Below, piece after piece: positions 35,770-64,000 of a stretch of 64,000 nt of DNA. The DNA lies in contig CM034546.1 of the NCBI GenBank assembly GCA_020055645.1, positions 72,106,001 through 72,170,000 on the forward strand. The letters are read 5' to 3'. This stretch comes from Tomocerus qinae. Its lineage: Eukaryota; Arthropoda; Collembola; Entomobryomorpha; Tomoceridae. Position 1 is the stretch's first letter. Each line of letters opens with the position of its first letter. The notes beneath the pieces are model-generated. The model made no database searches. It was not told the DNA's origin and worked only from the letters and a program-made list of their open reading frames with translations. The translations under genes and the position numbers were made by a program.

Positions 35770-36760
35770 ATGTTTGCTTTCGTTTACTATGAACACTGAC
35801 CGCATAACAAGCATTTGGCGATATAAGTAATAAGTATATTTCTGTGCAAAACATCTTACTATATAGGTACTATGTACATGTTGACGAAAAATTCTTTTAA
35901 ATGTACAGTGAATCTCTATATTATAATCGTAGACTTGATAAAGCAATCAATTTACCTGTGTGGTAGGGTGATCCAAAAGGCAAAATGCGTAAGCGTTGAT
36001 GCATTACATATTACAAAAAACAATGAACTACATTCTTGGTTAATATTAGCTTATTTCGAAGTTAACCAAAAAATTTTGTCACTTTTATTTAAAATTGCTA
36101 ATAATTCTAATTCTGCCAATTTTTTATGGAAGTCTACTTTTCAAACTTTAGTCCCACAATGCTGGGAACCTAGTATTAAATAATCCTTATCAAGTATAAA
36201 AATTATATAAAGCAGTTGGTATATTTCTAACACTGTCACGCCTTAAGATAAATCTACACTCTCCGGCATTGTGGTGTTTTGAGCCACTGACCTGCATCGA
36301 CCCATGTTAGGTATTCCTTTGTTATGTATACTAAGTCGGAAAAAAACCCATATTATTATGAGTGGGGAATACCTAAGAAATCTAAAGACTGGAATAAGCA
36401 TAACGCCCGTTTATAAGAAATAGAATCCATAGCCATAGCCATAAATAATTTAATAATTCAGCTTATCCAAAACAAGGAAAATGTTGTAATAAATCTATTG
36501 ACGCAATTCCAGCAATAGCAGTAATTTCAAACTTAAAAATGTGATATTCCTGCAATAATTAGTACAGCATAATAAGTATTTAAGTGATAACCTGGTAACT
36601 AATTAATTCCCCAAGATATAATTTACTCATAGTTATTAGCAACAGTACCGCCAAGGGAATCCACATAATTCCAAAACAATTCAAACGTTATACACTCCGG
36701 TAATAAATAGGCTATTGCTTATAAATACACTAGGCCACTAGCTATTATTGTTATAATACA
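35770..36760. repeat. Block X, copy 3 (start of segmental duplication unit A)
   Basis: Shares 'atgaacactgaccgcataac' with copies 1-2 on its P450-facing side. From about 35960 on it matches copy 4 ('tggtagggtgatccaaaa'). It joins the P450 upstream module to the elongase unit. Confidence 0.7.
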
Positions 36761-39741: not shown

Positions 39742-41204
39742 ATGTCTGTCGAAGCACTAAAAGAATTTGGGCTAGTGCCCACGTTCTATGAAAACCCACC
39801 AAAGTACGAGCCATTTTGGTTTGAGGAGAATGACATGAACGAGACTCGCTACTGGGCCAGAAAGTTTCTTCCCACTTGTTTTTATATTTGTGTCATTTAT
39901 TTCCTATTTATCACATTTGGACCATCTTACATGAAAAATAGAAAAGCATTTAGTCTGAAAACGCCTCTCGCTCTGTGGAATGCATCTTTGGCTATATTCT
40001 CAATCGTTGGCTTTACAAGAATGGCGCCAGAATTTTTCAGAATTTTGTTATCGCCCAATGGGTTTCATCTATCTGCATGCAAATGGTAGGCTAAATTACG
40101 GAATTGTGAATTAAGGAGAATACAATTTCTCTACAAATTACTCCTACAAAATTTAATTTGAAGTTTAAAATATTGTGCTAATTTGATAATATTTTTTAAC
40201 CAAATAAGGACTGGAGTGAACCAACCGTTTACGTTTTGGGGGCTAGCTTTCATAATTTCAAAGATAGCTGAGCTGATCGATACTGTGTTCATTGTACTCA
40301 GAAAGAAGCCATTGTCTTTTTTACACTGGTTAGTCAATTTTAAAATATTATATCCCGATATGGTAAAGGTAAAACCCATTATGTTGTAATTAAATATTTG
40401 AAATTAGGTTCCATCATCTCAGCATGGCTTGGTCGACGTTATTTCTATTCTCTGAAGGAGAACCCATTGGTCGATGGAGTGCGCTTCTTAATTTCGGCGT
40501 GCACTCAATAATGTACACCTACTATACCATAACGGTAAATATACATTGTATAAAAACTCCAGTGTGTTTATCACTTTTTGATATAATGACATTCTAATTA
40601 GTTTCTGTGCAAAAATATGTCTAGCTGTATCACGAAATTATATTATTCAACCTCTTATCCAGGAATTTGACCTAGGGGGGTGCACCAAAATATATTAATA
40701 ATATTTAGCATATTCTCGCGAAGCGCAAAAATTTTTTGGGTTTTTAACCTTTTTTGACAAAAAAATCGGCATTTTCTGGAATCTTAGCTGAGGGGGTGGC
40801 ACCTCTCGACTCTCGATACGTGCTTGTAAGATACTTTTATTGCAGTGATTATAACATTTATTACCATATTCACATTTCCTAGTCACTTGGGATAAAACTT
40901 CCGAAGAAAGTGTCCATGACTGTGACGAGTATTCAAATCCTGCAATTTATCACAGGGCTTTCTGTACATTTCTACACGATCGGGGTGCAAGGTAACTCAA
41001 TATAAATATTTCTTATGAAATGCAATGACGCATTAAAATCCAAATCAAGTAAATTTTTGGTACCATATAGGTCAAGGCGGAGATTGTTTCAGAACGACTA
41101 ATTCGAAGCGATTATATATTTTCCTTGGACTAATGTACCTCTCTCTCTTTGTTAGACTGTTTTACAATTCGTACGTTGCTCCCAGCAAAACTAAAAAACA
41201 GTAA
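39742..41204 (+). CDS. ELOVL6-like very-long-chain fatty-acid elongase, copy A
   Basis: Condensing enzyme of the ER elongation cycle, adding two carbons from malonyl-CoA to an acyl-CoA; ELOVL6 types prefer C12-C16 substrates. Five exons (39742-40085, 40209-40328, 40408-40534, 40883-40991, 41071-41204) join in frame to 277 residues, normal length. All hallmark motifs are present: KIAELIDT (133-140), the histidine box HWFHH (154-158, split by intron 2), NFGVHSIMYTYY (183-194) and TSIQILQF (212-219). Several hydrophobic segments fit the multi-pass family. The C-terminus KTKKQ is lysine-rich like an ER-retrieval signal. The start codon is the first ATG after 'aaattattaa', shared with copy B. Intron 3 contains a MITE present in both copies. 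Confidence 0.93.
40651..40823. repeat. MITE, 'CACGTATCC' family, in ELOVL A intron 3
   Basis: Ends 'ttatccaggaatttgac' and 'ctcgatacgtgc'. Same position as 53827-53998 in copy B, so it inserted before the segmental duplication. Confidence 0.7.
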
Positions 41205-41359
41205 TTTTTACGTTTATCACAATAGAATTCCGCCATTTCAAGTATTATACGTATCAAAACATTAAAAAAGACTGGTAAAATTAAATTATAATATAATATT
41301 TAATATTTGAATTTTCGATATAACATGCTTGGAATTATACGAAAAATAAATAGGTATGC

Positions 41360-41365
41360 AATAAA
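41360..41365 (+). terminator. Poly(A) signal, ELOVL A
   Basis: AATAAA within 'gcaataaactaattc', conserved in copy B (54547-54552) at a similar distance after the stop; a second AATAAA lies at 41345. Confidence 0.45.
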
Positions 41366-44118
41366 CTAATTCAACAATGTATTTAGTATTTATAGAAGCC
41401 CTCTGTTACTTTAGATTTAGACAGGTAGAATCATTCGTAATAATTAGTAAAATAATGCATAAGTCTGTAATTATCAGAGCCGGTTTTTGGGTACCAAAGA
41501 AGAAAATATGGATTTATATTAAAGACTAATTTGAATATAAGCTAGGCATTGAAGGGTGGTCAGTAACAAAAAGCTTTTTTTATAAGCATAATGAGAATTT
41601 AAAATGAGTTTATAAAATTCCTTCGCAGTGTTTAAAAATCTTAGAACAATATCGGACGAGAGTATAACTTCTATAATATAATCTCTGCAAAAATGTTTGT
41701 TTACCACTAGGAAAATCAATATTTTCATGCGTCATAACAACATCCTTGCTTAGTAGCTCGTCCTTCACTATACTGGTAACCACGCTTTAGATGAATATCA
41801 ACAAAAAAAACCATTTTAATCAATATTCTTGTAAAAGGCAATTCTGAATTGACATGACCCAGACCCTTTTCATTTCATAAATTTTCATTAAATCTCTTCT
41901 CAAATCATTTTGTTCTTTAGATCCACCAAGTCGGTATTTTATAGCATTTGCATAGTTGTTATGTTCACTGTACGAGCTAGGTTTCAGCCAGTACTAAATA
42001 AAAATCCTTGCAGTAACTCTTTTAAGATAATTGTCAAAGAGTGCAGTGAATTTCAATGTCTATGACCTGTAATGTTAGTTTATTTATTATCTGTGTGCAA
42101 TGTTGAAGCTGCCACTGGCATTGGGAACTGACTTAATAATAAGTATACTGTGTTAGACAGACACTTATCTAACATCTACTTACAGATTAGTGGAATTGGT
42201 TATCTTCGAGACATTGGTTATGTATGTTATTAAAGTTATTATTAAATAGAAATAATTGTGGAGAATATTGCTATACTTGTGTGTATGAATTGTAAAATTT
42301 TCTCATCTCCAACAAGATAAGCATCTTGACGCAGTCTGCACCTATACATACATGTATGCTCGAGGCCTTCTTCATTAAGCTGCCATTAGAGAAATTTCTT
42401 CGTCGTAAAAATTATCTACGTAATAAAATAAAAATTTCGCATCTTCCAAAGTCATAGCAATATTATTATACTAATATTAATACTGCAACCCACTTAATTC
42501 ACATAATTGCGAACCAATTTCCTGTTTGTTCCGTATTCTAAGTCTATTGTTTTTCTTTGCTGAGTTTTGTTGCGCATTTATTTTACTATGACAACTAGAT
42601 ATCTAAAGAACAGTCTTGAAAACTTGAATGCTTTTTCAAAGGTTAAATTAATGGCTAAATACTGTGATGTCAACAATTTCTTTGTACCACTGATGTTGGG
42701 TTAGCATTGTGTTACTTCACTATACCACCAGCCACCACCGCCGCGTTGCCCTGGAAAATATCGTGTCCGATACTTACTAACGGACGGCTAATACTGACAC
42801 TGTATCATTTACTGTATATTATGTACATACCTTAAACAGATAAAACGACCTAATATAATTTATAGATAGGTGACTCAGGATTGCCTATTTTACGTAATAC
42901 ATAATATTGTATAATAATGCTAGACTAGTGGCGAATAAGTACTTAAGTTATAGAGCTCAGGGAATACATAGGATACAGAACAGACTGTAATATGGGTTTT
43001 ATTTGTCAGACAGAAGTATACGTTTGAGTCTATATAATTCAGAATGTTGTTTATATTAGGAGTTATTATGTCAGAAAGAGGCTGAATTAAGCCGAAATCT
43101 TTATTGGAAAAAGGGAAGAAGTGGCTGTCAAAATAATATTTTTCGTTGAATTATTATTAAAGCCACTGAGGGTGAAACAATAACTATTTACTAGCCGGTA
43201 ATTTTATTTTGTTCACGTTCACACTGAAAAGCAATAATAACAAAGCTATTTCTGAATTTATCAACATTGCAGATGTAATTAAATTCAGTATTTTTGAAGC
43301 TAAAGGAAATTCTCAAACAATTCCCACGATGCATACTATCAGTATAATAATATCGTAAACCTTCTTACAACTTTCCAGTTCTAAAATAAGAAGGAATAGC
43401 CACAGCCTCAATAAATATGTTGATATCTTTATACGACCACTAAATTGGTTTTTACCAGGTAGTTAAATATACAGCAGAATATAGAGATGATTTTATTCTG
43501 CTACTTGCATAAAGCATGCATGTGAAATAAATTAGAATTTTCTCATCATTTCCTACAGCTCATATACGCAGTGATGGTGTAATTTCATTTCGAGACAATT
43601 TGGTGGAGAATAGACAAACTAACTCATCGCCAACAATAAACAAAAGCGTCTTGTACTTCCCAAAACTTGGTTGCCTATGTTTCTAAGACAAAAACTCATA
43701 CCGCGTTACCCGTACAATACTTTTTTATTACCTATACATTTATAACGCACTCGTTTTTCTTTTACTCTAAAATTTAAACTAAATTTACCATAAACTAAAA
43801 AATTGGTGGATAATTGAATTATAACCTTCACTGTTAATTACTGCTTGTAAATTGTATAAAAGTATGTTAATTGAAGTAGAAGAATTCAAATAAATAAGTT
43901 ATTTTTCGTACCTATTTCCTCTGCATATTTGGTTCTCATTTTTTTTAAATGTAACTGATGATCTGATGAAGGAATATGGTGAGGAATTGCACTTACTTTG
44001 TAACAAAATAAATTATTTTGGAATTTTCTTTAAAATCGACAAATAAGTCCCACAGGCTGCTCCTGTTATATTAACTTTCCATTTTATGGATTTTCTAATC
44101 ATGAGAATTAATTAAATA
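41366..44118. other. No gene seen (unit A spacer)
   Basis: Collinear with about 54550-57275 of unit B but with many indels and no open frame conserved between the two, which argues against hidden exons. Confidence 0.6.
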
Positions 44119-45801
44119 AACTGTGTTACACACACGTGTAGGCAATAAGAGGTTCAAAAGTTAACAACAACGGTAAAATTGTGTGTTAAACATCGTGGGG
44201 CCCTACGCGGCATCAAATTCAGCCCCCAAGACACACCCTAAAATGTATTTTGAATTCATTCGGTAACATGATAAGTGTTTAGGAGTCAAAAAAGTGGTAA
44301 GAACGTACAGAATGAAAGTTACCTATTTCCCCAGACGGGGGATTAAGGTGTTTGTCATCTAGTATTTCAAAAGTTGTTTAAGAAGTTTTCGGAAGAACTA
44401 TTACCAGACTTTATACGATGTACAAAACCAATTGAATTTTGAAAACAGATGCTGTTGAACTAAAAGACCCGAAGGAGATTAAGCCGCATTCCACCTCACT
44501 GAGTTAGCGATGAAAACGACGGGAGTAGTAATATTTCAAATTTTGATGAGATGTTCCACTTTTTCTACTCCTTCCCTATAATGCCGAACTAGATTTCAGT
44601 TCATTAGTTTCCCCACCGCCCACATCATGCATCAATCCCTTTGACTGTGGTTTCGGTAGATAGTAGACAGGGACAATGAGAATTCGTGCGCGTCACTAAT
44701 TAAATGACGAGGCATTTGGTACCCATAAGAGAGTCATAGTTATTCGTAAATTTGGGTCTGGTGGCTTTCTTATGGTAAAATAGGTAAAATGTAAAAAAGT
44801 AAAATGAGTGAGCAGCTGATTTTCACACCATTCAGGAAAATAATTTTACGATGACCGTTAAATTGTAAGGTTGATAATATTTGAAATATAAATATGGAAA
44901 AAAATTTCGATGACTACCGAATTTGAATGTCAATGTGATGATGCACGTTAGTCCCAAAATATCCATAATCAAAGTTCCGTAATGTCAACCTTCACACGTT
45001 TTCAATTGATTGTGTTTGGGCAGGTGCTACATTGTTGTTTTTTGGAAACCCTTAGCAACGACTTCCTCTGCTACTACGGTGTGCGCAATGTGGGATCCAG
45101 TCTTGCTATTTTATGAGCTATTGCATCGTTCTAATTATCTGGCGTACGTATTACTGGATCCTGTTTTGCTTTTTAATGAGCTATTGCATTCCTCCGCTTT
45201 TTTTGTGTACGCATTACTGGATTATCTCTACATTTCGTCATGAATTCAGCATTATTTTTTCGGTGATAATCACGACTACCTTTAGGTTTTTAGTTTGATG
45301 CATCTTACTCCAGCAATTGCAACTTTAAACAATCACTATCCTTCTTCTGTTTTTGCATTTCTTTCTTTCTCTCTCGGTGTAGCAGGTTTTGTTGTACATT
45401 CTTCTTTTTTAATTTGGGCATGATCTGCATTCAAAAGAAAAATTTATTTTGATAATTATTGTTAGTGAGTCAAGGTAGAGTATGATGATCAGTGATAGAA
45501 TAAAAACTGAAGTAAAATAATTGGGGGATTTTACCGCAGATAAAACTGTCAACGTCAATGGGAGGAACGAAATATAAAAAACGCGAAAAGTAAATTAAAA
45601 TAAGGAATTTTACGTACGTGCAAAACAAATTCGCCATAAATGGTAGCTCGTGATGGCTTCAACGGGGAGAGACAGAATCTAAAAATTTTACTTCTGTCAA
45701 AAGTTATTGACCATACAGCTTATTATGCATGGAGAAATGGGTGCACAGACAGACAGAAACACAGACTACTCGCAATAATAAGAGCAAACCTCTTATTAAT
45801 A
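44119..45801. mobile_element. Unit-A-specific insertion, about 1.7 kb
   Basis: Unit B is continuous here (57258-57290, 'gaattaattaaataattaataatc'), so this segment was added to unit A. An AATAAGAGGTT / AACCTCTTATT inverted pair lies just inside both ends (44148 and 45786). The interior is less AT-rich and has a 70-bp direct duplication around 45096-45230. No recognisable transposase; probably non-autonomous. Confidence 0.65.
45096..45230. repeat. Two copies of a 65-70 bp tandem repeat
   Basis: 'ttttatgagctattgcat' and 'ttaatgagctattgcattcc' begin successive, diverged copies, each containing 'tacgtattactggatcc' or 'tacgcattactggat'. The open frame through it is a by-product. Confidence 0.55.
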
Positions 45802-46069
45802 ATTAATAATCTACAGCCAAACAATGTTACACCTGGATCCTGGTTAGCTCTTGCCCACCTTTCAAGAACACTGTGCTTGATTATATGCTATACTACTTAA
45901 TAACATGTACTATCACACACGTGGCATTTACTTGCAGGGTCAACTACTAAATCAAGTTACCCGTCCCGTTAGTATAGTCGTTAAAATGATGCAACTTTTG
46001 TTACTTTATCAGTACTCAGTACAGCATTACAAAGAATGATGCAACAGTCAGCGAAAAAATTTCAATGGT

Positions 46070-46076
46070 TATATAA
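46070..46076 (+). promoter_or_regulatory. TATA box upstream of broken GT8 series
   Basis: TATATAA within a conserved block 'ttcaatggttatata', about 130 nt before the ATG at 46206. The same block precedes the intact gene at 57552. Confidence 0.4.
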
Positions 46077-46205
46077 GCATCACATTTTCTCAAATTTCAT
46101 TCCATTTTACTTCGTAAAGAAACAAACAGATTATCATTGTTGAAAGAGAAAACTTTAAGTTAACTCCTTCATTTAATTTAGTTTCTATACTGAAAATTAT
46201 ACGCC

Positions 46206-48400
46206 ATGCCAGGTAAGAATTGATTTTTTGAACTGGGAAATTTTGTAACCATTTTTCATTGCTTGTTGAGATACATAATTGTCATAAATTAAAACTACAG
46301 GCCAGTGAAATATAAGGTTGAAAACCAGTTAAAAATATTTATTTTGTTCCATTTTATGGGCATATTAAACTTTTTAATTGTAATATATATTATCGAAGAT
46401 TTTTTCGTTTGCATCAATCCCTATCCAATTAGTCTTGCTTCGGTTGTGGTGCTAGCAATGATTTAATGCATGTCCATTATTATATATTTTTAACGGTAAT
46501 GTAATGCACTGTTTTCATGAGTTGTGTTGACAATTCTCGGTTTGATTCCAGTTAGTACTCAGTTTTTGGATAGGTGTCAGTTGCCTACAAGCCTTGGTAT
46601 TGGCCAAGTCACTACGTAGAGTTTTCAGGTTGTTACAACAGCCAAAATTGTCGTTCTAATATTATCTGAAGATAAGGTGTCTGAATCTCTTCCGTGAGTA
46701 TAAAGTTATTTTGAAAGGATATTGATTTATCTGCTATCTTAAGAGCTATTATAAGCCTAATGTACAATACCTACATTGGACATCCATTTTTTACTACTTT
46801 TGCAGATTGGTGTTATCTGATGTGTTTGATGTGGTCCTATCTTTGAATGATGACTTCAAATTCTTTCAGTTGTCACCGCTGAATAATGCAAGGATGTTCG
46901 TTTGGAGTTTGACCATGTACCAAAAATGCATACTCATTGATCCACATTTAGTGGTAAAGAAATAAGTTAAAGACAAAATCCTAGACAATAGTCATGGCTC
47001 TACTAAAATTCATTTGCTCTGGATTGTATACCCAGATTTTCTGATAAATATTTAATAATAAAACGTCAGTTGACTAATGATATAAATAAGTAGAAATTAC
47101 AGAAGAATTTCAGAAGTCAAAAAATATTAACTTCTGAACTTATGTATTGGGTTTGCATTTCAATTTCAGGTTTGCGAAACTTGCGACGAACTGTTCTATT
47201 TGACGATTTTTTAAAAAGAAAGCCCTAAAAGTCAACACAAAAAATTAAAGCTTTTTAAATGATATTGTGGAACCAGAAACGGAAAGATCCAAACCATCCA
47301 AAGTATGAATTATATAATATTGTATGACAAATATTAATGCTAGTTATCAATTTACAGCAGAAAGATGAAAATGTCTTAAGAAAGTGAAATTAAAAATTAC
47401 CGGAATAGATTCTTGTTAAAAATCCACTCGCTTTTACTAGCACATTACTTATGTATATTTTTCAAAATATATCTGTTCTAACTCAAACATTAGCGAACCA
47501 AATATAGTTTTTAAGACTTTAATCTGTTCCCACAAGTCATTAAAATTAGAAAATTAGCTAATTTATTCAAATGTTTCTAAGTCGAATTTTTAGCAAATTA
47601 TAGCAACTTATGCGTTTATTTTACGAAATTTGACCATCGAGCGTGTCAAAAATGCTAATAGAATAGACCAATGATAAACCTTATTGAATTTGGCTGAAAT
47701 CGATTTGCTGAGATACCAAGCGCTTAGTTCTGAATTTCGATGACTGCTTTTTTACAAAAGATAATACTTTTTATTAAAAAGGCAATCCGTTTTTGCTTTT
47801 TTGCCTTATTTACATATAAAGTAAATGCTTTGCTATATCCTACATTTGCTATATTTATCTTATATATTTTCCTACATTTGTTACAATTGCTACATCAAAA
47901 AAGACAAAGAAATTCCCTTTTAAAACCTGAAGATTATTTTGGCCAGACATTCAGGCCAACTAATTTATCATAGTCTAACGTAATCTAAGTATGGGGCAGG
48001 TGGAGCGCTCCACCGTGGGATGGGGCCTTTTTGTCTTGCTGCTAATCTTTTGTAATTTCACATTATAGCCACAAGTTACTAACGGCCATTGCCATTGTAT
48101 AATCGTCCCTTAAGGTATCAAATACACAATACGCAGCTTAGAGTTGACATCGAAAATGCGCAATATGCATACGTTAGGCTACGCATATATTACGTATTTC
48201 CGGTACCTGCCTGAAGATGCATAATGCGTATTTTCTGTGGCAGCTTGAAAATGATATTAAGTATCTTCAGTACCAACTGAAATTGTTTATTTAAAGTATC
48301 TTAAGGATTCCAATGTAAAATTTTTATCTTTCAGGAATGCATAGGATTTTGGATTGAGATATTTGCTAAAGATGTTTTTCCATGTTTCGTCAGTAGAGTG
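46206..48400 (+). pseudogene. Broken glycogenin-like (GT8) exon series
   Basis: Homologue of exons 1-7 of the GT8-PKS gene at 57693. Exon 1 (ATGCCAG, 46206-46212) and exon 3 (46806-46953) survive. Exon 2 (from 46552) has lost 19 nt between two TTGCCTACAA direct repeats and carries other indels. Exon 4 (from 47170) runs into a stop after about 14 codons, because a deletion joins it to intron 5 sequence. Exon 5 and the first half of exon 6 are gone. Exon 7 (48335-48400) remains. No PKS exon follows. Exon 3 still reads CILID-P-H-L at the place of the sugar-nucleotide DxD motif, closer to a real glycogenin than the intact copy (CILIYPHL). Confidence 0.88.
48107..48200. repeat. Partial 'TCGTCCCTTAAGG' element
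   Basis: One terminus (ATCGTCCCTTAAGGTATCAA) plus interior like the 24004-24945 element, but no matching right end. Present at the same place in unit B (about 59945), so it predates the duplication and lies in the last GT8 intron. Confidence 0.6.
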
Positions 48401-48604
48401 GTGAGTTTTTCAGTACTACTTATCTTATTACACTTTAAAAGAAATGAAATAATTCTGATGCAATTATTATATAAGGTAAATCCGGCTGTTTTACAATAAA
48501 TACCACTCAGAAACACAATTTCATAATATTAACTAATGTCACCTATTCACTATCCAATCTGTGTAATTTCAAACCAAAAAGTCTTGAATATAAATTTGTC
48601 CAAA

Positions 48605-48740: not shown

Positions 48741-48772
48741 AGCAGACGATATATATGTTTATATATATATGT

Positions 48773-49880
48773 GTCGTAGACTGGGAGGGAAAGGTGACTG
48801 GGAGGGATATAATGTCCCTCTCCGTCTAGACTGGGTGGGATATCTCTGTACCGCTAGCGGTACCGAACCATGAGGTTTCCGACTGGGAGGGATAGGTTGT
48901 AAAGGATTGATATGAATGATTCTATGTGTATAAGTGCCACAACTATCGCAGATTTTAGGTTACTCTTACAGGTTTTATTCATTGTAATCATTATTTTCTA
49001 CAATATTCATAAATGTTAAGTATATTGGACATTTTGCGTCAGTCTTAATTAAATCATAAATTATTATTATCGCAGATTTTAGGTTACTCTTACATTTTTT
49101 ATTCATTGTAATCATTATTTTCTATAATATTTATAAATATTCAGTATATTACCCTTTTTGTATCAGTGACAATTAAATCATAAATTATTAAGTCAAGATT
49201 GACAGTCAAATGGTTAAGTAGATTACGCTGCTATTGCGGAAATTCCATTTTGTCTTATTAAAAAAAGTAAATTTAAATGAAACTCACTTCCCTAACTTCC
49301 CACAAAACAGCAACCTCTATGTAATTCAGCTTATAGCTCTTCATATTAAATGTAAACCTTGCTGAAAGTGATACTTCCACACGCTCTTAGACTTACTTTA
49401 CTACCAACAAACGTAGCATAGCAGTGTAACATACTTAACCATTTGAATTCCAATCTTGACTTAATAAATTATGATTTAATTATGACTGATACAAAAAATG
49501 CAATATTATAATTAATATTTATGAATATTATTGAAAATAAGGATTACAATAAATAAAAAATGTAAGAGTGACCTAAAATCTGCGATAGTAATAAATTATG
49601 ATTCAATTATGACTTACAAAGAGTGCAATATACTTAACATTTATGAATATTGTAGAAAATAATGATTACAATGAATAAAACCTGTAAGAGTAACCTAAAA
49701 TCTGCGATAGTTGTGGCACTTATACACATAGAATCATTCATATCAATCCTTTACAACCTATCCCTCCCAGTCGGAAACCTCATGGTTCGGTACCGCTAGC
49801 GGTACAGAGATATCCCACCCAGTCTAGACGGAGAGGGACATTATATCCCTCCCAGTCACCTTTCCCTCCCAGTCTACGAC
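48773..49880. mobile_element. 1.1-kb foldback element with 450-bp arms
   Basis: The arms (about 48773-49220 and 49435-49880) are near-perfect inverted repeats starting GTCGTAGACTGGGAGGGAAA. The direct repeat ATATGT (48767-48772 and 49881-49886) is the target duplication. Subterminal GACTGGGAGGGA motifs repeat several times in each arm, and a 16-bp palindrome GTACCGCTAGCGGTAC is at 48848-48863 (mirrored in the other arm). No open frame. It sits exactly between the two duplication units. Confidence 0.88.
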
Positions 49881-50760
49881 ATATGTCTGTACTTGTGGTA
49901 GGGTGATCCAAAATAAAAGGCAAAATGCGAAAGCGTTTATGCATTGCATATTACAAAAAACAATGAACTACACTCTGGGTTAATATTAGCTTATTTCGAA
50001 ATTAACCAAAAAATTTTGTCACTTTTATTTAACAATTGCTAATAATTCTAATTCTGCCAATTTTTTAATGAAAGTCTACTTTTCAAACTTTAGTCCCACA
50101 ATTCTGGGGACCTAGTATTAAATAATCCTTATCAAGTATAAAAATGAAATAAAACTGCTGATATATTTCTAACACTGTCACGCCTTATTAGATACTTCCC
50201 CACTCTCCGGCATTGTGGTGTTTTGAGCCACTGACCTGCACCGACCCATGTTAGGCATTCCTATGTTATGTATACTAAGTGGGAAAAAAGGTCGTAATAT
50301 TATTATGAGTAGGGAATACCTAAGAAATCCAAAGACTGGAATAAGCATACCGCCCGTTTATAAGAAATAGGATCTATAGCCATAAATAATTCTTAATTAT
50401 AAAAAATAAAATAGGAATCAAAGCATAATTTACATCAAGCTTATCCAAAACAAGGAAAATGTCGTAATAAATCTATTGACGCAATTCCAGCAATATAGTA
50501 GTAATTTTAAACTTAAAAATGTGATATTCCTGCAATAATTAATACAGCATAATAAGTATTTAAGTGATAACCTGGTAACTAATTAATTCCACAAGATATA
50601 ATTTCCTCATAGTTATTAGCAACAGTACCGCCAAGGGAATCCACATAATTCCAAAACAATTCAAACGTTATACACTCTGGTAATAAATAGGCTATAGCTT
50701 ATGAATACACTAAGCCACTAGCTATTATTGTTATAATACACAGAATCCTTTTTTAAGTTG

Positions 50761-52912
50761 AATAAGTAATATTATTGTACTTATCAAGTAACGGAGCTAC
50801 TTTATAAGAATACCTGATCTGTCTATCCGTCTGTAAGCCCGATAATTTAAAAGAACGGTTTGAGGAAATCATTAAAACTTGAACTATAGACTGAAAATAA
50901 ACAACATCAAACACTCCTCCTTTGTTTGGGCATGGTTCAAATATGGATGTAGCTTTAATAGTTTTCCACAACGTAGAACGACATAACTTAGTTAATTTTA
51001 AAGTTAATTTGTACTTTATTTGTTCAGGTTAAGGCCAAGTCAGACTATAACAAAATGTACGCCAGAAAACGTTAAGTAACATTCTAAAACATCTCTCCGC
51101 TCTCTCTATACTTTTTTTTATATACATTTGACATTGTTTGTACACAGTTCTATTCTGGCAAATCTTGAAACAGGATTTTATTACTCACAATTCACTTTAA
51201 TATAAAATTTAATGGACTGATACTTTATATTCCTTTTTAATTGCCAAGGTTTCCTTGAAAATGCAAAACAGTTATAAATAGCAAAATACCTTATCCAAGC
51301 TTTGGCATTCTTTTATTTAAATCTCTGGATCACACGGAGAATGCAGTTCACCTCAAGAGTACCTCCTTTAACAGATAGTCTCTTATGCCGTCACAATCGC
51401 CACCCGTCTGTCATCTAAATAATCTATTCTGTCTCTTCTCACAACTCACAGCTAACCTTATTTTACTTCCTCGTCACTACTCTACTACAAACATAAAAAC
51501 AACTCTCTTGCAATTAATCAACCAGTTTATTGCTTTATCTAAAGTAAATATCAATTACTGTGCTATGTATACGTATGTCTATTAAGCAATGAAAGGGAAA
51601 TTATCTCTCGAGCATACTAAAATAGAAATAATGTAGGCAGGTATGTCAGTAATATCAATATTACAGATCACAGATATCACAGAAAAGTCTCACACATTTC
51701 CCACGTAACTAACCGGTGCAATAAAATAATACTACTTGCCGTAGTAACTCAGTAAGATTGAGAACAAATTATAATTTATTTTGGTTCTGGCCACAAATGT
51801 TTTCAATGTAGTCTTTATAACCCAAAATAAAATTATTTCACGTAATACGGCCACTTGCAATGATTGTCATACTGTGAGCAGTAAGACCGCTTGTTTCTAG
51901 CGACCATGATAATTTGGTTACATTGTAATATTAACCAGACGATATGTATTTATTTCTATTTTTACTTAAAGGAGGTGACTGACTACCACATAATAGAGTG
52001 AGATATTCAGAATACTCATTATAGAATATCGTCATGCCGTGTTTATTTGTAGCGCACTAGATTTTTTGATAAAAAATTAAACTTAAAACAACCACTGTAA
52101 TCTAAAACTAATAAAACTCAAATAGAAATTTATAATTTAATTATTTTACATTGATAGGTACGTACTTTTCCGCAATTCACAAACAAACTTAATTGCTGTG
52201 GTGTATCTTGTTAACATTTTCAATAAACTGATGCATCATAAGCATGAACATTATTATATGGTGAGAAAAGATGTTTAACAACAAAAGAAAATGTTTAATT
52301 GTTTTCCTCTTATATAAAGCCAGTAGATAATGTAATCTACACACTATTTTCCATAATAACTATGCTTTTAACAGCTTTAGAGGGATAAATTGTTATCTGC
52401 TTTCAATTCCTAGTTCGTTTCTTGCAGTTTTTCGATCCCATGTTACCTTGATATGTAACATGTTGCATTTCACATTGACCGTACGTAAAATAGTGACAGA
52501 ACCTTGAAAATATTGATACTAAATGTTGTTTATTGTTTACGTTTACTCAACACCTACAAATACATATTATGGTAAAATCAACCATTGAGTTAAAAACATG
52601 CACAACTCAGTTGCAAATATACAGAATACGAGACTGGTGGTTGTTTTGCATTAAAGTTGGGAATATTTGCTACAAAGTTGTGCAAAATAGGACCACTTTT
52701 TTTCTCTGTGATGGGAATGGTAATGAAATTATGCTTTAATAACGAATCCGTACAACGGGTTATATATTGTAGCTTCTGCATATAACTTGACATTTCTTTA
52801 ACTTTTGCTGCTAGTTGGAGAATAAGATCGGACGTCTCTACAGCTCTCAAATATCTTGCCTTTTATTTAATTTCTCCACGTTGTCACTTTCAAAGGAAAT
52901 CAAAATTTTTAA
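50761..52912. other. No gene seen (ELOVL B upstream region)
   Basis: Collinear with unit A upstream DNA apart from a divergent stretch at about 51730-52110. No conserved frame. The 52740-52912 segment before the ATG is nearly identical to 39570-39741 and probably includes the core promoter and 5'UTR. Confidence 0.5.
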
Positions 52913-54377
52913 ATGTCTGCTGAAGCACTAAAAGAGTTCGGGCTTTTGCCCACGTTCTATGAAAACCCACCAAAGTACGAGCCCTTTTGGTTTGAGGAGA
53001 ATGACATGAACGAGACTCGCTACTGGGCCAGGAAGTTTCTTCCCACTTGTTTTTATATTTGTGTCATTTATTTCCTATTTATCACATTTGGACCATCTTA
53101 CATGAAAAATAGAAAAGCATTTAATCTGAAAACGCCTCTCGTTCTGTGGAATGCATCTTTGGCTATATTCTCAATTGCTGGCTTTACAAGAATTGCGCCA
53201 GAATTTTTCGGAATTTTGTTATCGCCCGATGGGTTTTATCAATCTACCTGTTTATGGTACGCTAAATTTTCGGAATTGTGAATTAAAAGAATAATACAAT
53301 TTCTCTACAAATTACCCTTACGAAATTTAATTTGAAGTGTGAATCTTGTGCTAATTTGGTAATATTTTGTAATGAAAACAGGACTGGACTGAATCAACCG
53401 ATGACATTTTGGGGGCTAGCTTTCACAATTTCAAAGATAGCTGAGCTGATCGATACTGTGTTCATTGTACTCAGAAAAAAACCGTTGTCTTTTTTACACT
53501 GGTTAGTCAATTTTAAAAATATTATATCCCGATATGGTAAAGGAAAAACCCATTATGTTATCATTAAATATTTTGAAATTAGGTTCCACCATCTCAGCAT
53601 GGCTTGGTCGACGTTTTATCTATTCTCTGAAGGAGAACCCATGGGTCGATGGAGTGCGATTCTTAATTTCGGTGTTCACTCAATAATGTACTCCTACTAT
53701 ACCATAATGGTAAATATATATTATATAAAAACTCCAGTGTGTTTATCACTTTTTGATACAATGACATTCTAATTAGTTTCTGTGTAATAATTTGTTCTGC
53801 TGTATCACGACATTATATTATTCAACCACGTATCCAGGAATTTGACCTAGGGGGGCGCACCAAAATATATTATTAAATAATATGGCATATTCTGGCGAAG
53901 CGGGAAATTTTTTGGGTTTTTAACGTTTTTTGACAAAAATAACCTCTTTTTCTGGAATCTTAGGGGGAGGCTGCCCCCCGGACCCCCTGGATACGTGGTT
54001 GTAAGATACTTTTATTGCATTGATTATAACATTTATTACCATATTCACATTTACTAGTCACTTGGGGCAAAACTTCCGAAGAAAGTGTCCATGACTGTGA
54101 CGAGTATTCAAATCTTGCAATTTATCACAGGGCTTTCTGTAAATTTCTACACGATCGGGGTGCAAGGTAACTCAATATAAATTTTTCTTATGAAATGAAA
54201 TTACAAACGAAAATCCAAATAATGTGAATTTTTGGTACAATAGGTCAAGGCAGAGATTGTTTCAGAACGACTAATTCAAAGCGATTATATATTTTCCTTG
54301 GAGTAATGTACCTTTCTCTCTTTGTTAGACTTTTTTACAATTCGTACATTGCTCCCAGTAAAACTAAAAAACAGTAA
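52913..54377 (+). CDS. ELOVL6-like very-long-chain fatty-acid elongase, copy B
   Basis: Five exons (52913-53256, 53382-53501, 53583-53709, 54058-54166, 54244-54377), each the same length as in copy A, join to 277 residues. It keeps KIAELIDT (133-140), HWFHH (154-158), NFGVHSIMYSYY (183-194) and TSIQILQF (212-219), so a working ER 3-ketoacyl-CoA synthase is expected. Differences from copy A are scattered and mostly conservative (Val3Ala, Arg/Gly and Asn/Asp near residues 101-106, His/Asn near 227). This gives about 95% identity and suggests both copies are under constraint. It lies 3.3 kb upstream of the GT8-PKS gene on the same strand. Confidence 0.93.
53827..53998. repeat. MITE, 'CACGTATCC' family, in ELOVL B intron 3
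   Basis: Best preserved ends of the family: AACCACGTATCCAGG and CCTGGATACGTGGTT. Orthologous by position to the copy in ELOVL A. Confidence 0.75.
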
Positions 54378-54546
54378 TTGTTACGTTTATCATAATTAAA
54401 TTCCACCATAGTTCCAAGTGTTTCAAGTATCAAAGCATTAAAAAATATGGGTATAATTAAATTGATTACAATAATAATATAAATATAATATTTAATATTG
54501 AATTATTGTTATAACATACTTGGATTTATTCGAAAAATAGGTATGC

Positions 54547-54552
54547 AATAAA
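54547..54552 (+). terminator. Poly(A) signal, ELOVL B
   Basis: AATAAA in 'gcaataaactaattc', about 170 nt after the stop and conserved with copy A. Confidence 0.45.
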
Positions 54553-57551
54553 CTAATTCAACAATGTATTTATATAATTTATAGAGGCACTCTGTTATTT
54601 TAGATTTAAACAGGTAGAATCATCCCATCCTTAAGATTTAGTAAAATAATGCATAAAACGTCTGTAATTATCAGAGCCGGATTTTGGGTACTAAAACAGA
54701 AATCATGGATTTATATTAAAGACTAATTTGTATATAAGCTAGACATTGAACGGTGGACAGTAACAAAAAGCTTTTTCATAAGCATAATGAGTAATTTAAA
54801 ATGAGTTTATAAAATTCCCTTACACTGTTTAAAATTCTTAGAACAATATCCGACGAGAGTATAACTTCTAACAATCTCAGCATATACTTTTGTTTGTCAT
54901 TAAGAAAATCAATATTTTCATGCTTCATCCCATCATCCTTGCTTAATGGCTTTCGATGAATATCAACAGTAAAACCATTTTAATCAATATTCATGTAAAT
55001 GGCAATTCTGAATTTACATGACCCAGAAATATTCGAAATTACTCTTTTCATTCATAAAATCTCTTCTCAAATCATTTGGATTTTTAGATCCACCAAGTCG
55101 GTATTTTATAGCATCATATACGTAGTTGTTAGTTATGCTCACTGTACGATCTAGGTTTCACATTCACAGCCAGTATTAATAAAAATCCTTGCAGTAACTC
55201 TTTTAAGATAATTATCAATGAGTGCTGTGAATTTCAATGTCTATGACCTGTAATGTTAGTTTATTGTATCTGTGTGCAATGTTAAAGCTGCCAAGGGCAT
55301 TAGGAACTGACTTAATAATAAGTATACTGTGTAAGGCACTTATCTAACATCTGCTTACAGATTAGTGAATTGTTTATCTTCGAGACAGTGGTCTTGTATG
55401 TTATTATTAAATAGAAATATAGTAGAGAATATTGCTATACTTGTGTGTATGAATTGTAAAATTTTCTCATATCCAACAAGATAAGCATCTTGACAGTCTG
55501 TATACATACATTTATGGTCGAGACCTTCTTCATTAAGCTGCCACTAGAGAAACATGATCATGGATATAAAAAAGTTCTTCGTCATAAAAATTATCTTTTT
55601 ACCTATGTTATAAAATGAAAATTGCGTATCTTCCAAAGTCATAGCAATATTATTATACTAATACTGCAGCCCACTTAATTCACATAATTGCCAAACAATT
55701 TCCTGTTTGTTCTGTATTCTAAGTCTGTTGTTTTTCTTTCCTGAGTTTTGTTGCGCATTTATTTAACAATGACAACTAGATATCTAAAGAGCAGTCTTGA
55801 AAACTTGACTGCTTTTTCAACGGTTAAATTAATGGCTAAATATTGGGATTTCAACATTTACTTTGTACCACTGACTTCGGGCTAAAATTGTGTTACTTCA
55901 CTATACCACTGCCACATTGCCCTGGAAAATATCGTTTCAGATACTGACTAGCGGACAACTAATACTGACACTGTGTCATTTACTATATTTATATTATGTA
56001 CATATATACCTACATACTAGTAGTAAGCCTTAAGCAGATAAAACGACCTGATATAATTAATATAGATAGGTGACTCAGGATTGCTTATTTTACGTAATAA
56101 ATAATATGTAAAATAATGCCGGTTAGACTAATTGCTAATAAGTTATAGAGCTCAGGGAATACACTGGATACAGAACAGACTGTAATATGGGTTTAAATTT
56201 CCAGAATTATATGTTTGAGTCTATATAATTCAGAAAGTTGTTTTAAGTAGGAGTTATTATGTCAGAAAGAGGCTGAAAGTCAAAATCTTTATTGGCAAAA
56301 GGGAAGAAGCGGCTGTAAATAGATAGACGCAGAGCTAAAATTATGAAATAATATTTTTCGTTGAATTATTATTAAAGCCACTGAGGGTGAAACAATAACT
56401 ATTTACTAGCCCGTAATTTTATTTTGTTCACGTTCACACTGAAAAGCAGTAACAAAGCTATTTCTCAATTTATCAACATTGCAGATGTAATTAAATTCAT
56501 TATTTCCGAAGATAAAGGGAATTCTTAAACAATTCCCACGATGCATAATATCAGTATAATAATATCGTAAACCTTCTTACAATTTTCCAGTTTTAAAATA
56601 GGCCCATAAGAAGGAATAGCTACAGCCTCAATAAATTCATATCTTTATAAGACCACTAAATTGGTTTTACCAGGTAGTTAAATATACAGCAGAATATAGA
56701 GATGATTTTATTCTGCTTGCATAAAGCATGCATGTGAAATAAATTAGAATTTTCTCATCATTTCCTACAGCTCATATCCAATAGTGATGATGTAATTTCA
56801 TTTCGAGACAATTTGCTGGAAAATAGAATAGATGTTCCTAAAACAAAAACTCATACCGCGTTACCCGTACAATCCTTCATTACATTTATAACGCAATCGT
56901 TTTTCTTTTATTCTAAAATTTAAACTAAATTTACCAAAAACTTAAAAATTGGTAAATAATTTAATTATAAATTTCACTGTTAATTATTTCTTGTAAATTG
57001 TATAAAAGTATTATAATTGAAGTAGAAGAATTCAAATAAACAAGTTATTTTTCTTAGCATTTTCCTCTATATGTTTGGTTCTTATTTTTTTAAATGTAAC
57101 TGATGATCTGATGAAGGAATATGGTGAGAAATTACAACTATTTACTTTGTAACAAAACAAATTCTTTTGGCATTTTCCTTGATCATTTTTAAAACCGACA
57201 AATAAATCCCACAGACTGCTCCTGTTATATTAACTTTCCATGTTATGGATTTTCTAGTCATGAGAATTAATTAAATAATTAATAATCTACAGCTAAACAA
57301 TGTTACACCTGGATTCTGGTTAGCTCTTGCCCAACTTTCAAGAACACTGTACTTGATTATATGCTATACTACTTAATAATAGGTACATCGTTGCTATCAC
57401 ACACGTGGCATTTACTTGCAGGGTCAACTACTAAATCAAGTTACCCGTCCCGTTAGTATAGTCGTTAATGATGCAACTTTTGTTATTTTATCAGTACTTA
57501 GTACAGCATTACAAAGAATAATACAACAGTCAGCGAAAAAATTTCAATGGT
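54553..57551. other. No gene seen (unit B spacer)
   Basis: Non-coding spacer collinear with unit A. The last 250 bp (from about 57300) are strongly conserved with 45805-46070 and lead into the TATA box, which suggests a promoter region for the GT8-PKS gene. Confidence 0.55.
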
Positions 57552-57558
57552 TATATAA
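57552..57558 (+). promoter_or_regulatory. TATA box of GT8-PKS gene
   Basis: TATATAA in 'aatggttatataaacatcac', 135 nt before the first ATG and conserved with 46070. Position fits a short 5'UTR; inferred. Confidence 0.45.
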
Positions 57559-57692
57559 ACATCACATTTTCTCAAGTTTCATTCCATTTTACGTCGTATA
57601 GAAACAGACCGATTATCAAAATACATTGTAAAAAGAGAACGTTAAGTTAACTCCTTCATTTAGTTTATTTTCTATACTGAAAATTATACGTC

Positions 57693-60600
57693 ATGCCAGG
57701 TAAGTATTGATTTTTTGAACTGAGAAATTTTGTAACCATTTTTCATTATTTGTTGAGATACTTTTGTCGTAAATAAAAACTACAGGCCCGTTCAGCAGAA
57801 TTGATAAAATTTTCGTTTAAAGGGTGACAAATTCTCCTAGATAAGGTTGAAAATAAGTTGAAATTATTTACTTTGTTCCATTTTAAGTGTACATAGAGCA
57901 TTTTAATTGTAATATATATTATCGATGATTTGCACCAATCCCTATCCAATCTCGTCTAGCCTATCCAATACCAGCCTTCGGGTGTGGTGTGGTACTAGCA
58001 ATGATTTAATGCACGTGTGTTATTATCTGTTTTGAACGGTAATGCAATGTTTCTATGAGTTGTGTTGACAATTCTCGGTTTAATTCCAGTTAGTACTCAG
58101 TTTGGATGGGTGACAGTTGCCTACAATGAGGAAACTTGCCTACAAGCCTTGGTATTGGCCAAGTCTCTACGAAGAGTTGTCACAACGGCCAAAATTGTCA
58201 TCTTAATATCTGAAGATGTGACTGCATCTCTTTCGTAAGTATAAAGTTATTTTAAAAGGATATTGATTTATTTGCTACCTTAATAGTATTATAGACCTAA
58301 TGTATACGTATAATATTGTCATTGTTACAATTATTGTATGGTACCTACATTGGACATCAATTTTTTACTACTTTTGCAGATTGGTGTTATCTGATGTGTT
58401 TGATGTGGTCCTGTGTTTGAATGATGACTTCAAATTCACTCAGTTGTCACCGTTGAATAAAGCAAGGATGTTCGTTTGGAGTTTGACCATGTACCAAAAA
58501 TGCATTCTCATTTATCCACATCTAGTGGTAAAGATATACTTTAAAGACAAAATCCTAGTCATGTCTCTACTAAAATTCATTTGCTCTGGATTGTATACCC
58601 AGATTTTCTGATAAATATTTAATGATAAAACGCCTTGACATAAATAAATAGAAATTACAGTCAAAAAATATTAATTTCTGAACTTATGTATTGGGTTTTT
58701 CATTTCAATTTCAGGTTTTAAAAAATTGCGACGAACTGTTCTATTTTGACGATTCTTCAATCGTCGATAGCTCCAATGATCACGTCCTCCTAATTGCAAA
58801 ACCGTCATATGAAGTCTACAGGAATTTGGTCGCTTTGGTGAAAGCGGAGACATTCTTGAACGGTATTTAACTTGATCGGTGATACGTTAAATCATATTTA
58901 TACCAAAAGACTACGATATTATAATACATAGAATGTAGATATTAGATTTGTATCAAATATATAATATATATAGAAGTGATGTATAAAAAACAGACAAACG
59001 TATGTAGGGCCAGAAATTGCGGTTCTATAAGCGCGCTTCCTTGGGCGTGCTAAAAACAACACTAATAAGCAGAATATTTGTTTTAGTTCATGTTGAAAAT
59101 AAATAAGTGTATGTATTCTCCTCCCTCAGCTTGTACATAAATGTTAAAATATCTTTGCCGTTCACACTCAGAATAACATTTGAGATTTTGTTGCTGTAAT
59201 AATATATGATTAATTGGTTTAATTATTTATTTATTTAATTATTTAGACATAAAATTCAGTAACTGGGATTGTTTTAAGTCATTTGGGAAAAAAATTGAAA
59301 TAAAGACTTTGGACACTGTCAAGAGAATCTTCAAAAATTGCAATTCTGAGCCGTAAGTTATCGATTTTTTAAACAGAAAGCCCAAAAGTCAACATCAAAT
59401 AAAAATGCCAAATTTCATTCGCTGATGGGCTGCAACTTTTGATAAAATAAATGTTTTTGTGATCATTAGATTGACGACGCGTTTCAGAAAAATTTGGAAC
59501 GTCATTGACATTAAGCCGTGGAACCTTTTAAATGATATTGTGGAACTAGAAACGGAACCAGCCAAAGTATGAATTGTATAATATTGTATGACAAATAGAA
59601 TATTAGTCAGCAGAAAGATGAAAATGCCTTAAGAAAGTGAAATTCAAAATTACCGTAATAGATTCTTGTTAAAAACTCGCTTTTACCAGTAAAATCACTT
59701 ATGTATATTTTTCAAAATATATCTGTTCCAATATTGCAATGGCGAGCTACATAAAATATTATCCTACATTTACTGCAATTGTTACATCAAAAAAGACAAA
59801 GAAAATTCCGTTTTAAAACCTAAAATTCGTAAAAACCAGAAAAGTGTTTTGAAAATGGCATTTTCGTCTTGCTGTTAATCTCTTGTAGTTACACATTTTT
59901 ACGATATTATAGCCACAAGTTACTAACGGCCATTGCCATTGTAAAATCGTCCCTTAAGATATCAAATACACAATACGCAGCTTAGAGTTGGCATCGAAAA
60001 TACGCAATAATATGCATACATTAGGCTATGCATATAACGTGTTTCCGGTACCAGCCTGACGATATGCACATTGCGTATTTTCTGTGGCAGCTTGAAAATG
60101 ATATTGCGTATTTTCAGTACCAACTAAAATTGCATAATATTTGAAGTATCTTAAGGATTCCAATGTAAAATTTTTATCTTTCAGGAATGCATAGGATTTT
60201 GGATTGAGGTGTTTGCTAAAGATGTTTTTCCATGTTTCGTCAATAGAGGGGTGAGTTTTTCAGTACTACTTATTACACTTAAAAAATGGAATAATTCTGA
60301 TGCAATTATTATTATATAAGGTAGAACCGGCTGTTTTACAATAAATACTAATCAGAAACACAGTACAATTTCATAATATTAACTTATACAACCGACCATT
60401 ATCCAATCTGCGTAATTTCAGGCCAAAAAGTCTTGAATATAAATTCTGTCAAATTTTAGGTCAACTTGCAAACAGTTAACTTTACGAAATTGAAAGAAAT
60501 ATTTCCGTTTCAAGAGCAACTCAGAAAAAAGGATCATGTAGATATATTGGAAGCCATAGCAATTATTGGACAAAGCTGTCGTTTTCCTGGTGCAAACAGT

Positions 60601-63600
60601 ATTGCTGAATTTTGGGAGCTTTTGGAAACAGGATCGGATGGAATAACTTCAATTTCACTAGAACGGCTTCCTGAATGTCACAGAGAAGATCCGCGCTATA
60701 CTTCTATTAAGGCGGGATTTCTGAAATGTCCAATTGACGAATTCGATGCAAAGTTTTTTGGGATTAGTCCCAGAGAAGCAGCATTTATGGATCCTCAGCA
60801 AAGACTAATGGTAGAAGTCGCTTGGGAGGCTTTAGAAAATGCAGCAATTAATCCAGACAAGTTTAAAGGTAGTAACACGGGAGTCTTTTCAGGCGTTTGG
60901 ACTCATGAATACGAAAGACTGCTAACAGAAACCACAAAAAGTGGAAGAGATTTCAATCATGTGGTTCTCGGAAATGCATTCAGTGCAACTTCAGCTCGTG
61001 TCTCCTATTTTCTTGGATTAAATGGACCAAATGTGGCCACTGAGTCCGGATGTTCTTCTTCAATGGTCGCTCTGCATTTGGCGTGTGACAGTTTGAGGAA
61101 AAGAGAAACTGATCTGGCTTTAGCAACCGGAGCAAATTTATTAATTGCTCATTTCCCTCACAGTGATGTTTCTTTGCTGGCTAAGGATGGCCGTTGTAAA
61201 ACTTTTGACGAGAATGCAGATGGATTCGCTAGGGCAGAAGGAATTGCTGTTGTTGTACTAAAAAGATATTCCGATGCAGTTAGAGATGGGGACAGAATTT
61301 TGTCGATAATTCGAGGATCGGGAATTAGTAACGAAGGAACAACTTCCAGTTTTGGAACTCCGAGTAAATATTGTCAGGAAATTGCAATTCGAGAAGCTTT
61401 GAAAGTATCGGGAGTTAAACCAGAAGAGGTTGATTACGTCGAGGCTCATGGGACAGGAACCCCCATTGGAGACCCCATTGAATTTGCAGCCATTTCAGAG
61501 GGTTATAAAGCAGAAAGAGAGAAACCGATTGTTATTGGTTCTGTTAAAACAAATACTGGCCATACGGAATCAGCAGCAGGATTGGCTGGAGTAATAAAAG
61601 TACTCTTGGCGATGGAAAAAGAAATTATCCCTCCCCACAGAAATTTGGATACAGTAAATTCAAATATTAATTTGGATTTACTTCCCGCCGAAATTCCTAC
61701 AAGTCCCATTCCTTGGCCCAAAAATAATAGAAGAAAACGAATAGCTGGAGTGAGCTCCTTTGGTATTAGTGGAACAAACGTTCACGTTATTTTGGAAGAA
61801 CCACCTCAAATTTTCAAAAAAGGCATTGATATTGGCAACAAAAAAGAAAGGCCGTGTCATATGCTGACACTCTCTGCCAAGTCTGAAAACGCGCTGAAAG
61901 ATTTAGTTTCTAGTTATGCCTCTTTTCTTGGTAGACATACATCAATAAGGATTGAAAATATTTGCTTTACAGCTAATACAGGAAGATCACGTTTAAAATA
62001 TCGTTTCACTGAGATTGCTAGAGATTTAGAAGACTTGAAGAATAAGTTAGATAAACCTGTATTTCTCTCTGAATCGATTTTAATTGGAAAGCCGAAAATT
62101 GCTTTCCTATTTACAGGGCAGGGATCCCAATATGTAGGAATGGCTAAGGAACTGTCTGAGACAAGTCCAATATTTGCAAATGCATTTAATGGTTGCAATA
62201 AAATAATCGAGAACAATTTAGGCTTTTCTGCGAGGGATGTTCTTTGGGAACTAGATTCCAAAAACAATGTCAACGAAACAATTCATAGTCAAATATCAAT
62301 CTTCTGCATTGAGTACAGTTTGTTGAAATTGTGGGAAAGCTTTGGGATAAAGCCAGATTGTGTATTGGGTCACAGTGTAGGAGAATTCGCTGCTTCGGTG
62401 GCTTCTGGAGTGATGACACTTAAAGAAGCACTTCTACTTGTGTCTGAACGAGCGAAGCTAATTAATGGTTTGCCCAAAGGAGGGATGCTGGCAGTTAGAG
62501 CCTCGAAGGATAAAGTAGAATATCTAATTGAATTATTTGCTACACGCAATTCCTCTGACAAATGGATTGATATTGCCGTAATTAATTCCATGGACGAAAT
62601 AGTTGTAGCTGGGGAAGTTTTCACATTGAAAATATTTTCAGAATTGTGTACAGCTAATAATATAAAATCTCAAATGCTTGCAGCTAGTCACGCATTTCAT
62701 TCCCGTGCAATGGAAGGTATGCTTGATGAGTTTGGTGCAGTGGCGAGGGAAATTAAATATAAATCTCCTACTTGTCAATACATATCCGGTTCAATTGGCA
62801 AGGTTTTAGATTTAAACGATTTAACATCAAACTATTGGCAAAATCATGCACGATATTCTGTTGACTTTACTAAAGGAATTAAACTAACCAGTGAACAGGG
62901 ATGCAATATTTTCGTTGAAATTGGAGCACATCCAATTTTATTAGCTCTTGGAATGATCAATTTATCAATGGAAGAACAACAGAATTGTCTGTGGCTTCCA
63001 TCCATACGCAAAAATGAAGAAAATTGGTTCACAATATTCGGAAGTCTATCTAAGTTGTATGTCAATGATGTTGATATTGATTGGGAGAGAATGGAGTCTT
63101 GTTATTCCAGACGAAAAATTGATTTACCTCATTATCCTTTTCAAAGACAGAAATTCTGGATTGATTCTAAATCAGAACCACTTTCGAAACCTCTTCACCC
63201 AATGCTGGGTAGAAAAGCTTCTTTAGCCGTAGTTAAAGAGCAAGTTTTCTATAATTCTTGGGATTTGCAAGATTTTTCCTATTTGAGAGATCATCAAATT
63301 ACAAGTTTAATTATATTACCAGGTGCAGGTATTTTGGAACTTATTTTAGCTGCTGGAAAAGAGGTCTTTAATATAACAAAAATACACAACACTAATTTAC
63401 TAGTCGAGGATTTTGTAATCGAGGCACCAATAGAATTGGAAGACGACAAAGAGCAGAGAATTCAAATTATTGCTTCTAAAGTAGAAGGAAAAGAGGAATT
63501 TTTAATCCGAGTATTTCTCTACAAAAATTTAAATGGATACAATGAAGAGAAAGGATGGAGACAATTTGCTATGGCCAATGTGTCCATAAATAGTAGTGCA

Positions 63601-64000
63601 AAGAATAATTATAAATTACCACTTGAATCAGAATGTACTGACGAAATCTGCATGGAAGAATTCTATAATGCATTTGCTAAAGCAGGTATAAATTTTGGAG
63701 TTATGTTTAAGAGCATCTCAAAAATGTTGACAGGGGAGAATCACATTTTAGCCAAAGTTCCTTGCCCAGAGAATTGTGGGAATATCAATGCGTATGTTTA
63801 CCATCCTATTGTCCTGGACGCTATGTTGCAAACATTTTCAATAATTTCTGGTAAACGAACGGACGCTTCTGATTTGCACCTGCCAGTGGGAATTTCTAAG
63901 TTTTCGATGATATCAAAAACAAATGCAAATTATTTTTTAGTGCACATTGCCAAGGATAGTGGAATAATCAATCTGTACGATGATAAAAAAATGTTATTAG
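57693..64000 (+). CDS. Glycogenin-like GT8 domain fused to type I polyketide synthase (KS-AT-DH...), 3' end beyond window
   Basis: Exons 57693-57699, 58090-58234, 58380-58527, 58715-58862, 59247-59352, 59470-59566, 60185-60250 and 60460->64000 have GT-AG borders and matching phases. The first seven sum to exactly 239 codons. Residues 3-230 resemble glycogenin (QFGWVTVAYN, ALVLAKSLRR, KPWN at 200-203), but the DxD metal site reads Y96-P-H and the later donor-binding segments are missing, so it is probably a pseudo-glycosyltransferase. From residue 272: a ketosynthase (IAIIGQSCRFPG; Cys437 in GCSSS; His569 in EAHGTGT; His607 in KTNTGH); an acyltransferase (GQGSQ; Ser878 in GHSVG; HAFH, predicting malonyl-CoA); the linker LPHYPFQRQKFWI; and a dehydratase (His1184, with HxxxG altered to HxxxS; Asp1359 in HPIVLDA). 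KR, ER and ACP would lie beyond the window. The 3.5-kb PKS part has no intron and is closer to bacterial or protist PKS than to animal FAS by motif. Confidence 0.9.

Follow-up and report, generated by a model that had tools for sequence, protein, structure and literature searches.

Arthropod genes fused from animal-derived and horizontally acquired parts, the HGT-chimeras, among them oskar, are the subject of Kapoor et al. 2026 (PMC13389597), who report that 36 of the 41 tested gave one chimeric mRNA, that gene duplication was often involved and that Folsomia candida has the most predicted HGT-chimeras. The locus described here lies in a window comprising the whole 64,000-nucleotide stretch of DNA analysed, and would resemble those chimeras in being a single frame of putatively animal-derived and horizontally acquired parts. 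In oskar, as presented there, it is the acquired domain that lost hydrolytic residues, whereas here the host domain appears to have lost its site. The AFPKs treated in PMC10764717 are likewise type I synthases in an animal-like genome, but where that paper places them they form a clade with animal fatty acid synthase (FAS), while the polyketide synthase (PKS) of the window scores higher with bacterial PKS. A better parallel than AFPK would be a PKS of the springtail Folsomia that was acquired by horizontal transfer and is cited in a passage of PMC10764717, and 30 type I PKS clusters are given in the text of the Folsomia candida genome paper (PMC5490193).

The class of HGT-chimeras is already known; a GT8-PKS architecture was not found in print. 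No published GT8/glycogenin-PKS fusion emerged from a literature search of main texts and partly of titles only, in agreement with the first-pass annotation, to which no described animal PKS with such an N-terminus was known. The main text of PMC13389597 contains none of the terms polyketide, glycogenin, glycosyl and ketoacyl, its 104-cluster data sets lying in the supplements. In the checked passages of a paper with both glycogenin and ketoacyl synthase terms, glycogenin occurs only in a reference, and among the papers listed on PKS, transfer, arthropods and ketosynthase none concerned a GT8-PKS fusion by its title.

The exon chain was rebuilt independently and comprises eight exons and seven introns with GT-AG at every border (Table 1). 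The intron phases (1,2,0,1,2,0,0) are all mutually consistent, exons 1-7 sum to 717 nt or 239 codons, and the joined frame of exons 1-8 runs for 1419 codons without a stop up to the window end. The earlier claim of seven exons encoding 239 residues joined in frame to a PKS was thereby verified in its borders, phases and open frame. Splice sites were scored by a matrix for which ten introns of the window other than intron 7 served as the training set. The donor of exon 7 ranked first among the 23 GT in 60150-60600 (score 4.76) and the acceptor of exon 8 first among the 28 AG in 60255-60760 (9.23, the second being 60321 with 9.05); window-wide, this acceptor is at the 99th percentile and the donor, not outstanding, at the 91st. 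Unspliced read-through into 60460 is blocked by an in-frame TAG at 60457-60459, immediately 5′ of exon 8 and within its acceptor, and the upstream acceptors 60321 and 60422 were rejected because they lead into the same TAG. The first Met of exon 8 is its residue 110 (coordinate 60787) and lies within the KS domain, so that a start in exon 8 would cost the PKS part of its KS. Exon 8 is without a usable start and the PKS therefore requires an upstream exon.

Table 1. Predicted exons of the GT8-PKS gene and features of the tandem copies, in window coordinates
Feature	Coordinates	Strand	Remarks
Exon 1	57693..57699	+	ATGCCAG; start codon, donor CAG/GTAAGT; ATG and splice site also in duplicated copy at 46206
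Exon 2	58090..58234	+	GT8 domain; collinear tblastn match to glycogenin, E 0.013
Exon 3	58380..58527	+	GT8 domain; YPH at position of glycogenin DAD
Exon 4	58715..58862	+	GT8 domain; glycogenin alignment
Exon 5	59247..59352	+	GT8 domain, poorly conserved; full-length alignment
Exon 6	59470..59566	+	GT8 domain, KPW kept
Exon 7	60185..60250	+	GT8 domain end; aligned to glycogenin ILWWNIFTTNVLPLL
Exon 8	60460..64000	+	Polyketide synthase KS-AT-DH, open at window end
Right copy, 10.6 kb	49894..60453	+	ELO gene and GT8 exons 1-7; abuts PKS exon 8
Left copy, 12.6 kb with insertions	35959..48603	+	No PKS
Decayed left GT8 copy	46206..48400	+	Exon 2 stop, exon 4 frameshift; remainder of exon 4, all of exon 5 and the greater part of exon 6 gone
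ELO-family fatty acid elongase, right copy	52913..54377	+	5 exons, intact
ELO gene, left copy	39742..41204	+	Five segments open; splice dinucleotides and stop in place

The relationship of the N-terminal part to glycogenin was seen in several sequence searches. With phmmer against PDB, 19 of the 20 matches at E<=10 were glycogenins (glycogenin-1 and -2), the best at E 1.1e-13, and the query extended by 28 residues of exon 8 gave one alignment of residues 8-250 with 5-276 of a glycogenin-1 chain. BLASTP against a glycogenin-1 fragment aligned query residues 9-250 at 25% identity and 65.1 bits, compared with 25.0 bits for the top of 500 shuffled queries, of which 323 yielded an alignment. In tblastn of the unspliced DNA, exons 2, 3 and 4 matched glycogenin in order but weakly (E 0.013, 0.045 and 1.9, respectively). 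Residues 143-254 searched alone gave no glycogenin match, and the GT8 part gave no match in an NCBIfam search. The Pfam GT8 profile PF01501, a search against which had been set beforehand as the refuting test of the GT8/glycogenin claim, did not match the N-terminal domain at E<=1 or at E<=10, a result against the claim, although the same profile detects the glycogenin-1 fragment at E 1.5e-15. The claim was upheld by the direct comparisons with glycogenin and not by the family profile. Since the sequence searches match where the Pfam and NCBIfam profiles miss, the N-terminal part is taken to be a strongly diverged glycogenin relative, and for GT8 ancestry the former searches are judged to outweigh the Pfam miss.

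In the alignment the glycogenin DAD falls on YPH of the query, so the DxD site is replaced, as the first-pass annotation had noticed. Opposite FDGGDQG the alignment has a gap, another residue stands for the H of HFLG and KPW is retained, the C-terminal part of the alignment being of low confidence. The functional roles of the glycogenin residues DAD, DQG, HFLG and KPW are assumed here. The query presumably has Phe at the position of the acceptor tyrosine of glycogenin, where the aligned glycogenin chain, which we take to be a mutant, also has Phe. With the DxD and other catalytic residues lost, the domain would be a glycogenin relative and not an active glycogenin. It is like glycogenin in the alignment over residues 9-250 and differs from it in its lost site, in escaping PF01501 and in being joined to a PKS. 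A complete but catalytically dead GT8 domain of glycogenin type would be the best explanation of residues 1-239. Three pattern matches in viral contigs were considered as GT8 relatives, and none was an actual relative.

Exon 8 matched the Pfam families KS (3e-74 and 2e-39), AT (2e-51) and DH (8e-18 and 1e-14), which bears out its earlier description as a KS-AT-DH PKS. All the catalytic motifs are present (Cys/His/His in KS, Ser and HAFH in AT, His and Asp in DH), on what we take to be the meaning of these active-site motifs. Among the best 60 of 251 PDB matches, CurL, presumably cyanobacterial, scored 716 bits against 293 bits for the top-listed fatty acid synthase chain, and the PKS is thus not closer to animal FAS, as an AFPK would be. 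A search of prokaryote genome contigs for PKS relatives found 153, of which 80 were retained. The top relative, from Desmonostoc, has 52-53% identity in KS and 39% over query residues 31-1159, and the three best bacterial relatives have 37-43% identity to the window PKS. Two of these three, from Desmonostoc (L001) and Pelatocladus (L003), have the order KS-AT-DH-ER-KR-ACP; the one from Thiomargarita (L002) has no DH match and a methyltransferase instead. All three start directly with KS and have no loading domain. Their open reading frames begin 41, 34 and 28 residues (L001 to L003) before the matched KS start, and with 30 such residues in exon 8 the joint therefore lies near the natural start of the protein. 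Other relatives among the 20 inspected sit deep in longer open frames, e.g. L012 with 1004 residues upstream.

The PKS of the window appears to be of the bacterial cis-AT type and not animal FAS-like. It shares with that type a CurL-like linker, found with KS-AT in L001-L003, and the DH that follows it in L001 and L003, and differs in its intron setting and in having a GT8 head instead of the bacterial start. The comparison with prokaryote genomes suggests a bacterial origin. In a tree that combined the window, its sole eukaryote row, with 38 loci out of the 80 (E <= 1e-40, >350 residues), the window PKS had a long branch and fell next to a Parachlamydiaceae row (support 91/92, not starred). 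This tree of 38 prokaryote loci and the window did not single out a donor. The GC3 of 0.285 in the PKS versus 0.444 in the GT8 exons was considered as a test of foreign origin and is not decisive. No PKS remnants were found elsewhere in positions 1-57000, the best tblastn match having E 3.0 and no blastn match being obtained at 0.01. On the DNA evidence, the splice chain, the open frame, the missing start in the PKS exon and the homology of both halves could all be demonstrated, and the GT8-PKS fusion very likely exists as a genuine gene.

The GT8 exons belong to a tandem duplication whose copies are alignable in several blocks, with a noncoding divergence of 9.3% over 7415 aligned sites and 111 gaps in the alignable noncoding blocks, 88 of them not multiples of three. 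Both copies carry an ELO-family elongase, which in the right copy we take to be ELOVL6-like, and dN/dS between the two ELO genes is 0.31 over 275 codons. No PKS follows the left GT8 copy, and the PKS-linked right GT8 copy is intact. Neutral evolution of the right GT8 exons would predict 4.25 frameshifts, 1.62 nonsense changes and 1.30 splice lesions, and none was observed against the total of 7.2 (P ~0.0008 if rates are equal), the rate being taken from BLAST-alignable blocks with equal rates assumed for two copies without outgroup. This argues that the PKS-linked GT8 exons were kept for use, but it is no proof of fusion, because one redundant copy of a separate gene could equally decay. The GT8 dN/dS between copies, 0.45 with no clear constraint, came from exons 3 and 7 only and was dropped as a test because its 13 changes are too few. 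The codon that opens the former DxD is GAT (Asp, 46939-46941) in the left copy, which reads DPH, and TAT (Tyr, 58513-58515) in the right copy, which reads YPH; the loss of the Asp therefore probably postdates the duplication.

Between the copies lies a palindromic element (48762-49891) that takes up most of the intervening space, stops 2 bases before the right copy and has outer arms of 275 nt that are 97% complementary. A second duplicated pair, 21260-23989 and 32326-35252, carries cytochrome P450 pieces on the minus strand (Pfam p450 6e-6 for 21498-22070, and 1.5e-4, below the curated cut-off, for 32678-33175), and a scan of the P450 genes in the window for the heme motif gave no match. A 681-codon open frame at 14815-16860 is transposase-like by eye and has no Pfam match above cut-off. 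P450, elongase and PKS genes occur together in 21260-64000, a possible lipid-polyketide cluster.

The locus could alternatively hold two neighbouring genes, a glycogenin-like gene ending in intron 7 and a PKS beginning in some other upstream exon, and this is considered unlikely. A candidate start for a separate PKS does exist in a 21-nt micro-exon at 60300-60320 (ATG...AAG/GTAGAA), which is in phase, has the second-best of the 23 donors in the region and survives almost unchanged in the left copy, but its donor is outscored by that of exon 7 (3.17 versus 4.76) and exons 7 and 8 agree in phase. Chance decay of one of two redundant GT8 copies may also have occurred, but it is the PKS-less copy that has decayed, an outcome which two separate genes predict only about half the time. 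An assembly chimera or bacterial contamination, in which native DNA up to about 60453 was misjoined to a bacterial PKS contig, is very unlikely. The homology between the copies stops at 60453, six bases 5′ of exon 8, and the GC3 values differ across the joint as a misjoin would have it, but the joint falls close to the natural PKS N-terminus, uses the top acceptor of 28 AG and is in phase with exon 7, and a random join would seldom give the fit of phase, acceptor and N-terminus together. Glycogenin is a self-priming initiator and loading domains occupy the head of a PKS, but a real fusion in which GT8 binds a sugar nucleotide or carries the PKS primer, as the first-pass annotation had speculated, is the least likely of these readings and is disfavoured by the changes at DAD, FDGGDQG and HFLG (residue roles being assumed and the C-terminal alignment weak) and by the three closest bacterial relatives, which begin with KS.

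The locus is probably best read as one gene and one protein with a dead GT8 head followed by a horizontally acquired PKS, and this points to a captured bacterial enzyme that came into use by being spliced behind a host gene. To judge from the neighbouring genes, the host is probably an animal. The acquired PKS gene would have lost its own start and been joined by splicing, at its natural N-terminus, to a host glycogenin-like gene, whose 5′ part would supply the promoter and the start codon as well as a folded cap at the N-terminus. Judged from its motifs, the PKS would be an ordinary malonyl-using type I enzyme, and it probably continues to ER-KR-ACP past the window, as L001 and L003 do. The weakest step is the role of the GT8 cap, which would most likely be structural or dimerising and replace the bacterial N-terminal stretch; a scaffold or dimer cap is possible, and a structural cap is the best guess. 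As the PKS appears bacterial cis-AT and not animal FAS-like, its natural class would be that of the HGT-chimeras, the single frame and the two homologies (glycogenin, bacterial PKS) being seen directly and the foreign origin of the PKS being deduced.

The end of homology at 60453 is a coincidence under plain tandem duplication. It suggests a breakpoint common to the duplication and the origin of the fusion, and capture of the PKS at the duplication break would explain why homology ends six bases before the PKS exon. The PKS neighbour would not be younger than the duplication, unless it was inserted later at the same spot. A birth in one event, with an 11-kb host duplication and PKS DNA captured at the same break within an intron of the glycogenin-like gene, is put forward only tentatively and is rather doubtful. 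GT8 would then have lost the last Asp in its metal site, which the left copy still has, and have been kept only as the PKS head, serving an animal megasynthase as an N-terminal module with a structural function alone.

If the fusion is true, a bacterial megasynthase was made workable in an animal-like genome via splicing to a host gene. The locus has a built-in comparison, since the same host exons were co-duplicated and decayed without the PKS and stayed open with it. It would offer a concrete gene in which to study how foreign biosynthetic genes gain a start codon, a promoter and an N-terminal architecture in a eukaryote, and it raises the testable point of whether a PKS can make use of a dead glycosyltransferase.
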